From: an uncultured Paracoccus sp.
GTDB lineage: Bacteria > Pseudomonadota > Alphaproteobacteria > Rhodobacterales > Rhodobacteraceae
Assembly (NCBI RefSeq): GCF_947496875.1
Contig: NZ_CANMEH010000001.1
Span: 315,663 to 379,662 of the forward strand
DNA length: 64,000 nucleotides
Direction of reading: 5' to 3'
Of this stretch, positions 13,245-15,645 are shown piece after piece; the stretch's first letter is position 1; each line of letters opens with the position of its first letter. A model generated the notes under the pieces. It did no database searches. It had not been told where the DNA came from and saw only the letters and a list, made by a program, of their open reading frames with translations. Position numbers and translations under genes: made by a program.

Positions 13245-14891
13245 TCAGACCATCCGTTCCAGATCCTTGGCCGCGCGGACGAAATCGCGGAACAGCGGCG
13301 CGGGCGCGAACGGCTTGGACTTCAGTTCGGGATGTGACTGCACGCCGATGAACCAGGGGTGATCGCGCACCTCGACCACTTCCGGCAGGCGGCCGTCCGG
13401 TGACATGCCGGAAAACCACAGGCCGTGCTGTTCCAGCCGGTCCCGATAGGCCGCGTCTATTTCATAGCGGTGACGGTGGCGGTCCTCCATCTCGGTGGCG
13501 CCGCCATAGACCTCGGCGACCTTCGACCCGGGGGCCAGATGCGCGGTATAGGACCCCAGCCGCATGGTCCCGCCCTTGTCGTCGGTAATCTTGCGCTGAA
13601 CCGTCGAGTTCCCCTTCACCCATTCCTTCAGGTGATAGACGACCGGGGTGAAGCGGTCCGCGCCGGCTTCGTGGTCGAATTCCTCGGACCCCGCGTCGGC
13701 AATGCCCGCCAGGTTGCGCGCGGCCTCGATCACCGCCATCTGCATCCCCAGACAGATGCCCAGATAGGGCACCTTCTTCTCGCGCGCGTATTTCGCGGCC
13801 GAGATCATCCCTTCGGTCCCGCGTTCGCCGAACCCGCCGGGGACCACGATGCCGTGATAGCCGTCCAGCAGATGGATGCCCTCTGCCGTTTCCAGCTTTT
13901 CGGCGTCGATCCAGTCGGGCCGGACCCGGACCCGGTTCGCCATCCCCCCATGCGTCAGCGCCTCGGAGATGGATTTGTAGGCGTCCTCGAGCTGGGTATA
14001 CTTGCCGACGATCGCGACCCGCACCTCGCCTTCGGCGTTGGTCAGCCGATCCATCACGTCTTCCCAGCGGCGCAGGTCGGGCCGGGGGGCAGGGCTGATG
14101 CGGAAGGCGTCCAGCACGGCCCGGTCCAGCCCGGCCTGATGATAGGCCATCGGCGCCTCGTAGATGGACTTGAGGTCATAGGCGGGGATCACCGCATCCG
14201 GGCGGACGTTGCAGAACAGCGCGATCTTGGCGCGTTCGCGGTCCGGGATCGGCTGTTCGGACCGGCAGACCAGCACGTCGGGCTGCAGTCCGATCGAGCG
14301 CAGTTCCTTGACGCTGTGCTGCGTCGGCTTGGTCTTCAGCTCGCCGGAAGCGGCCAGATAAGGCAGCAGGGTCAGGTGCATCAGGATGCACTGCCCGCGC
14401 GGGCGGTCATTGGAAAACTGGCGGATCGCCTCGAAGAACGGCAGCCCCTCGATATCCCCGACCGTGCCGCCGATCTCGCACAGCTGGAAATCGACCTCGT
14501 CCTCGCCGATCGCGAGGAAATCCTTGATCTCGTTGGTGACGTGCGGGATCACCTGGATCGTCTTGCCCAGATAGCCGCCACGGCGTTCGCGTTCCAGCAC
14601 GTTGGAATAGATCCGGCCGGCGCTGATCGTGTCGGTGCGCCGGGCGCTGACGCCCGTAAACCGCTCGTAATGTCCCAGGTCCAGGTCGGTCTCTGCGCCG
14701 TCGTCGGTGACGAATACCTCGCCATGCTCGAAGGGGCTCATCGTCCCGGGATCGACGTTCAGATAGGGGTCGAGCTTGCGCAGCCGCACCGTATAGCCGC
14801 GGGCCTGCAGCAAGGCCCCCAGCGCCGCCGAGGCAAGCCCCTTGCCCAGCGAGGACACGACGCCACCGGTGATGAAGATGTAACGCGCCAT
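13245..14891 (-). CDS. pyrG: CTP synthase
   Basis: [78 protein letters not shown]. Confidence 0.98.
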
Positions 14892-14920
14892 GGAGCCCCC
14901 GTGATGATCTCAGCACTGCG

Positions 14921-14940
14921 AAAAACGGCCCGAACGGCCG
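14921..14940 (-). terminator. intrinsic-terminator-like hairpin with U-tract (secG terminator or pyrG leader attenuator)
   Basis: Minus strand CGGCC-GTTCG-GGCCG-TTTTT: 5-bp GC stem, 5-nt loop, immediate T5. Confidence 0.65.
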
Positions 14941-14956
14941 GCATCACGGGAGCCGG

Positions 14957-14985
14957 GACATACCCGACTTTCCGCGATCCCGCAA
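14957..14985 (-). promoter_or_regulatory. candidate pyrG promoter TTGCGG-N17-TATGTC
   Basis: Minus strand TTGCGG (14980-14985), 17-nt spacer, TATGTC (14957-14962), upstream of the hairpin. Confidence 0.5.
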
Positions 14986-15045: not shown

Positions 15046-15645
15046 TCAGTTCGTCTCGGCCGGCGCGGTCAGCGGAACCCTGACGGTCCGTCCGGTCCCG
15101 TCGCTGGCAGGAGGCGTGTCGCCGACCGGGACGGTCCGCGTGGTACGGCCGGCTGCGGGGGCCGCCTCTGCGTCCGCCGGCGCCGAAGCAGCCGCGGAAG
15201 GGGCGGGGGCAGGAGCGGGCGTCGTGATGTCGGCAGGCGGTGCGACCGGCGCGGGCGCCGCGGCAGCGGCCGGCGGAGTCGCAGGCGCGGCACCGGGCGG
15301 CAGCACAGGCTGTCCGACGCCGGGCGGCGGCGCATAGTCAGGTACGGCGGGCAGCCCGGTCGCAGGCGCGTCGGTTGTTTCCGCCGGGCTCGCCAGCCGG
15401 TCCATCACCGATCCATCTGCCGAATTGCGCGCCGCGATGACGGTCAGCGCAATGGACGTCACGAGAAATGCCCCGGCCAGAAGCCAGGTCGCGCGGGACA
15501 GGGCATTGGCGGCCTGGCGCCCGGTCATGACACCACCGCCACCCCCGCCAAGGCCAAGACCGCCGCCTTCGGACCGCTGCAGCAGCACCACGCCGATCAG
15601 CAGCACGGCGAGGATCAGATGCACGGTAAGAACGACGTTCTGCAC
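15046..15645 (-). CDS. secG: preprotein translocase subunit SecG with long Ala/Pro-rich C-terminal extension
   Basis: MQNVVLTVHLILAVLLIGVVLLQRSEGGGLGLGGGGGGVMTGRQAANALSRATWLLA. Confidence 0.93.
   Translation of the reverse strand: MQNVVLTVHLILAVLLIGVVLLQRSEGGGLGLGGGGGGVMTGRQAANALSRATWLLAGAFLVTSIALTVIAARNSADGSVMDRLASPAETTDAPATGLPAVPDYAPPPGVGQPVLPPGAAPATPPAAAAAPAPVAPPADITTPAPAPAPSAAASAPADAEAAPAAGRTTRTVPVGDTPPASDGTGRTVRVPLTAPAETN

Follow-up and report, generated by a model that had tools for sequence, protein, structure and literature searches.

The window, a stretch of 64,000 nucleotides from Paracoccus, carries on its minus strand pyrG, the gene of CTP synthase, with secG lying upstream of it. 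Both genes were identified with NCBIfam models at scores above the cut-off: TIGR00337 (721.9 bits) and NF003792 (791.1 bits) for PyrG, and TIGR00810 (70.9 bits) for SecG. Residues 3-70 of the 199 residues of SecG match the 73-position model, and the protein continues past it in a long tail rich in Pro and Ala. An ORF of 169 amino acids (14407-14916, minus strand) overlaps the pyrG start out of frame and is regarded as a by-product of the high GC content. The features of the locus, in the direction of transcription, are as follows:

15046..15645, minus strand: secG
14980..14985, minus strand: -35 element TTGCGG of the pyrG promoter (TTG 35 nt before the C-run in 102 of 108 Rhodobacterales leaders)
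14957..14962, minus strand: -10 element TATGTC of the pyrG promoter (TA 12 nt before the first C in 89 of the 108 leaders, 11 nt in 19)
14948..14950, minus strand: CCC at positions 7-9 after the -10 element, preceded by T6; predicted start at C7 and putative CTP-sensing element (CCC in 108 of 108)
14942..14950, minus strand: 5' arm CCCGTGATG, an anti-Shine-Dalgarno arm (from sequence, folding and conservation)
14926..14940, minus strand: inner hairpin CGGCC-GTTCG-GGCCG (from sequence; similar hairpins recur in Paracoccus)
14921..14925, minus strand: T5 tract after the inner hairpin (from sequence; not conserved)
14898..14906, minus strand: 3' arm CATCACGGG, overlapping the ribosome-binding site (from sequence, folding and conservation)
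14896..14900, minus strand: GGGGG, the Shine-Dalgarno-like run of pyrG (GGGGG or GGGAG in relatives)
13245..14891, minus strand: pyrG, with its ATG at 14891

The -35 and -10 elements are separated by a spacer of 17 nt, and the six nucleotides CCGGCT separate TATGTC from CCCGTGATG. The first-pass annotation had pointed to a promoter match, an inner stem followed by T5, 9-bp outer arms and a G-rich region resembling a Shine-Dalgarno (SD) sequence, and all of these are present on the minus strand. It had also proposed that the leader RNA would fold with the hairpin nested inside the outer stem. Such a nested structure is indeed obtained by computation (71 nt, -33.3 kcal/mol, z -2.2). As a 9-bp arm reaching the start region also arises in 8 of 400 dinucleotide shuffles of the window, the window sequence by itself is suggestive and no more. 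It is the conservation of the arms that settles the reality of the observation.

To describe this conservation, a search by PyrG similarity was used, which gave 80 Rhodobacterales loci chosen regardless of their leaders; the leader was included in 79. Together with the window and two more genomes of the family, and with one duplicate removed, these make 81 distinct leaders, and the addition of 27 distinct Paracoccus leaders brings the set to 108. CCCGTG was the search string, so that the 5' core is uniform by construction, yet no leader was dropped for lacking it. CCCGTG and, near the ATG, a C(A/G)CGGG partner are found in all 108 leaders, with one partner reading CACGGA. The partner carries the sole ribosome-binding site of pyrG, and CACGGG is followed by GG or AG in 89 of the 108 leaders (GG in 59). 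The first seven pairs of the arms are formed in 97% of the leaders, compared with 30-64% after the partner has been shifted by 1-3 nt. The claim that an outer stem covers the ribosome-binding site is thus borne out, its invariant core being paired in 107-108 of the 108 leaders. The placement of the promoter upstream of the structure holds as well, since the TTG has the same spacing in 102 of the 108 leaders. The stem stops close to where the RNA is predicted to begin, and pairing at position 5 and upstream does not exceed expectation.

The loop between the arms varies from 23 to 109 nt, and loops of equal length are about 30% identical, i.e. saturated. The leaders thus keep their promoter spacing and start sequence constant, as well as the anti-SD arm and its partner bearing the SD-like run (GGGGG or GGGAG). 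Covariation of arms that are nearly invariant proves little. The only variation in the stem core is a change of T-A to T-G in 10 of the 108 leaders, and both sides never change together. The check for outer-arm covariation in relatives, suggested by the first-pass annotation, therefore says little about the core, and at the inner pair that follows the signal is weak (P 0.02).

The near invariance of the core letters and the lack of compensatory change would also be consistent with CCCGTG and CACGGG being DNA sites of a regulator, not arms of an RNA. However, the distance between the two elements ranges from 23 to 109 bp, one of them always coincides with the SD sequence, and the strict two-arm pattern is essentially confined to pyrG. 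In a separate sample of the family, this strict pattern, applied to DNA, occurred in 60 of 121 genomes with one site each, and 29 of the 30 loci examined were pyrG; in the genome of the window, pyrG is the sole site. A pattern that dispenses with the start codon and includes the promoter bases finds chiefly pyrG, plus sporadic and mostly non-recurrent sites elsewhere. A pair of DNA sites is hence a very improbable explanation of the arms.

The inner hairpin with its T5 tract has the form of an intrinsic terminator, and it had been proposed that the leader may be a transcription attenuator, in which this hairpin terminates the transcript and the outer stem acts as an antiterminator or modulator. 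A GC hairpin between the arms is present in most Paracoccus leaders. The T-run that should follow it is found in none of the 29 other Paracoccus leaders, leaving the genome of the window alone among 30, and a lax terminator rule is passed by 11 of 82 Rhodobacterales leaders, whereas the outer arms are universal. Furthermore, the outer stem surrounds the hairpin rather than competing with it. The Rfam PyrG_leader model, which does match B. subtilis, finds nothing in the genome of the window. The non-conserved T-run rules the hairpin out as a conserved terminator or attenuator. Because this run is not conserved and the outer stem encloses the hairpin without competition, attenuation of the B. 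subtilis type is unlikely as a general mechanism, and as an account of the window leader it is highly improbable. The T5 tract is perhaps a weak local terminator in the genome of the window only. The inner hairpin would chiefly draw the arms together, a function for which a terminator role is unneeded.

No other Rfam family reached the gathering score in the window, and relaxing the threshold to E up to 10 gave chance hits only. PyrC_leader and PyrD_leader, which match E. coli pyrC and pyrD, have no match in the window, and PyrC_leader has none in the genome of the window either. The conserved GTG at positions 10-12 was considered as the start of an upstream ORF and rejected. A stop codon precedes the ATG in 32, 60 and 23 leaders in the three frames, frame 0 is not favoured, and the frame is not kept, with single-base indels separating close Ruegeria leaders.

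Bacterial RNA polymerase prefers to start at position 7, and its choice of start depends on substrate concentration (PMC5730371). In the Rhodobacterales leaders CCCGTG begins 35 nt after the TTG of the -35 element and, counted from the -10 element, at approximately position 7, which is the usual +1. A pyrimidine occupies position 6 in 106 of the 108 leaders, CCC occupies positions 7-9 and G position 10 in every one of them, and purines occupy positions 3-4 in more than 90%. In the 19 leaders with the TA one base closer, the C-run would begin at position 6. By its sequence, the leader has a sigma-70 promoter in which pyrimidines fill all the preferred start positions (T6 C7 C8 C9), with G10 next. 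The 5' arm TCCCGTG starts at the predicted +1, and the distant 3' arm CACGGG(G/A)G is the ribosome-binding site. The -10 element of the window, TATGTC, has no final T; the last base is likewise not T in more than 60% of the alphaproteobacterial sigma-70 promoters examined in PMC8407463.

The first-pass annotation named B. subtilis pyrG as the known case of CTP-sensed attenuation and overlooked pyrC and pyrD of E. coli, which are closer. In the genome sequence, E. coli pyrC reads TTGTG-T6-C7-C8-G9-GC, and its arm CCGGC pairs with GCCGGAG, which holds the SD sequence; the start region of pyrD has C7 C8 G9. It is well established for pyrC and pyrD that high CTP leads to a start at C and a masked SD sequence, and low CTP to a shorter RNA that starts at G and is translated; the work of Wilson in 1992, Sorensen in 1993 and Liu and Turnbough in 1994 on this regulation is listed in PMC5730371. 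Rhodobacterales pyrG shares with pyrC and pyrD of E. coli and Salmonella (RF02372, RF02373) the C7 C8 within a pyrimidine run and the G just after it. As in E. coli pyrC, the second arm contains the SD sequence, and a downstream start would drop the C's at the 5' end and weaken the stem. The differences are that the gene is pyrG, whose product makes CTP, that the arms are TCCCGTG and CACGGGRG, and that the loop is usually about 46 nt with a hairpin of its own, compared to about 15 nt or less in pyrC and pyrD. The pyrG leader also has no Rfam match, and its CTP response is predicted by analogy of sequence.

By combining these observations, it is possible to propose that the Rhodobacterales pyrG leader is a CTP-responsive translational switch operating like that of E. 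coli pyrC, a reading to which we assign a probability of roughly 0.6. When CTP is plentiful, RNA polymerase would initiate at C7, and the complete 5' arm would then pair with the ribosome-binding site and hide it, so that little PyrG is made. As CTP falls, initiation with C would be disfavoured and the start would move, most likely to G10. The RNA starting at G10 lacks CCC, which would reduce the stem from at least seven pairs to about 4-6 and allow PyrG to be translated. CTP is likely sensed by the pyrC-type rule, in a leader that would act like pyrC and lies outside the Rfam PyrC family. Paracoccus and the whole order Rhodobacterales thus probably make less CTP synthase when CTP is plentiful. 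The link to CTP that had been suggested for this leader is retained by inference, because the C-run occupies the preferred start position.

The calculated arm-duplex energies and helix probability are consistent with such a switch. The energy of the arm duplex changes from -11.1 kcal/mol for the C7 start to -2.1 kcal/mol for the G10 start, and from -14.8 to -5.8 kcal/mol in the window. For E. coli pyrC, loss of the C's gives a smaller drop, from -8.3 to -2.6 kcal/mol. The helix probability of the C7-start RNA has a median of 0.91. In full-ensemble folding, the median accessibility of the SD sequence rises modestly upon loss of CCC, from 0.31 to 0.42. For the window, one calculation gives no gain and another a rise from 0.21 to 0.31, and for E. 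coli pyrC the same kind of measure shows little change (0.47 to 0.51). The modest rise counts against the switch, as do the place of G10, one position beyond the G9 of E. coli pyrC, the purines at positions 4-5, which offer an alternative upstream start that would retain the arm, and the 19 leaders with the TA one base closer.

The modest ensemble effect of removing CCC would also suit a fixed stem that masks the SD sequence without sensing CTP. Such a stem would form in read-through RNA as well, and it might keep the translation of pyrG low or block it on RNA reading through from secG, with a protein, small RNA or ribosome perhaps opening it. This explanation leaves two things unaccounted for, namely that the arm begins with nothing but pyrimidines precisely where the polymerase prefers to start, and that C7 C8 is found there in other orders that have no stem; it is considered unlikely.

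The C-run might instead act through slippage. At high CTP, reiterative transcription on CCC could release useless poly-C RNAs, or the added C's could pair with GGGGG and tighten the mask. In all 108 leaders the same base is repeated from the predicted +1 through +3, which is the geometry of the B. subtilis pyrG slippage, and the G's of the 3' arm often outnumber the C's of the 5' arm, as in the leaders with GG after CACGGG. In S. agalactiae, nucleotide genes commonly show reiterative transcription (PMC4448216). The B. subtilis PyrG_leader (RF02371) has in common with the present leader the gene, a homopolymer run at the start and the presumed CTP signal. It relies on a G-run and a terminator, whereas the Rhodobacterales leader has a C-run, masks the SD sequence and has no conserved terminator. 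Slippage on C is, to our knowledge, sparsely documented. E. coli pyrC and pyrD act through start choice, and in the wider class described below there are often only two C's before the ATG, which are probably too few for efficient slippage. Slippage is therefore rather unlikely, and the pyrC-like choice of start is the preferred reading.

This wider class consists of 104 pyrG starts from other alphaproteobacterial families, which were compared with 293 control ORF starts from 20 of the same genomes. TA at -14 is found in 54 of the 104 pyrG starts and 12 of the 293 controls, CC before the ATG in 68 and 37, and both together in 49 and 3, respectively. Of the 54 pyrG starts with TA at -14, 51 have a pyrimidine at position 6, C7 and C8 are each present in 51, and the ATG begins at position 9. 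In several other families the sequence is TCCC-ATG with the ATG at position 10, for example TTAAGTCCCATG (L293) and TCAAGTCCCATG (L298); the Rhodobacterales counterpart is TTAAGTCCCGTG, as in L004. In about half of the other families the -10 element lies immediately upstream, and the predicted RNA start is at or within 3 nt of the ATG. The pyrG of the window is not near-leaderless; it has a leader of the 70-nt class, as in Rhodobacterales.

The pyrG genes of many families, with a -10 element directly upstream and the ATG at position 9 or 10, resemble the leaderless mRNAs of Alphaproteobacteria (Caulobacter, Sinorhizobium). They differ in having C7 C8 before the ATG, so that the main start would leave a leader of 2-3 nt. 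C7 C8 (C9) before the pyrG ATG suggests an ancestral near-leaderless, CTP-sensitive start that might be the source of the Rhodobacterales arm. In what we propose as the simplest reading, the 5' arm arose from such a start when ATG changed to GTG, and a leader with an SD sequence was gained downstream. According to studies cited in the review PMC9031893, leaderless translation is in some species strongly reduced when the start codon lies at a distance from the 5' end. By this effect, a move from CC-AUG to AUG when CTP is low could in itself raise PyrG.

It may thus be suggested, tentatively and with the odds rather against it, that a CTP-sensitive choice of the pyrG start at C7 C8 (C9) extends throughout the Alphaproteobacteria. 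Most families would make CC-AUG with a 2-3 nt leader at high CTP and the leaderless, better translated AUG at low CTP, and in Rhodobacterales CCC-ATG would have become the CCC-GTG of the anti-SD arm. Some caution is due, as AGG lies within six nt before CC in some genomes, and it is possible that near-leaderless pyrG is transcribed from further upstream. TCC-ATG is not the rule in the sampled pyrG leaders of other proteobacterial classes, with one exception (L287). The papers found contain no description of a CTP-dependent choice between CCAUG and AUG.

As far as the literature search reached, the control of CTP synthase in Alphaproteobacteria is apparently undescribed, and no paper was found on start-site control of pyrG in this group. 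If the proposed switch is real, it is a protein-free CTP sensor on the enzyme that makes CTP, kept across an order. With it, the principle known so far from pyrC and pyrD, two other genes of pyrimidine synthesis in E. coli, would reach a further class and the gene that is its most direct target. Should the near-leaderless form respond too, a single leaderless mRNA would be regulated through one nucleotide pool, which would answer the question, left open in PMC9031893, of how the translation of a particular leaderless mRNA is regulated.

Finally, GAATC lies 20 nt ahead of the CCCGTG, counted from its first C, in 71 of the 108 Rhodobacterales leaders; the window (at about 14970) does not have it. 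In the region just upstream of this place, GANTC is found in none of the 108. The motif fits GANTC (CcrM-type) but almost always reads GAATC, so it is possibly another promoter or regulator motif.
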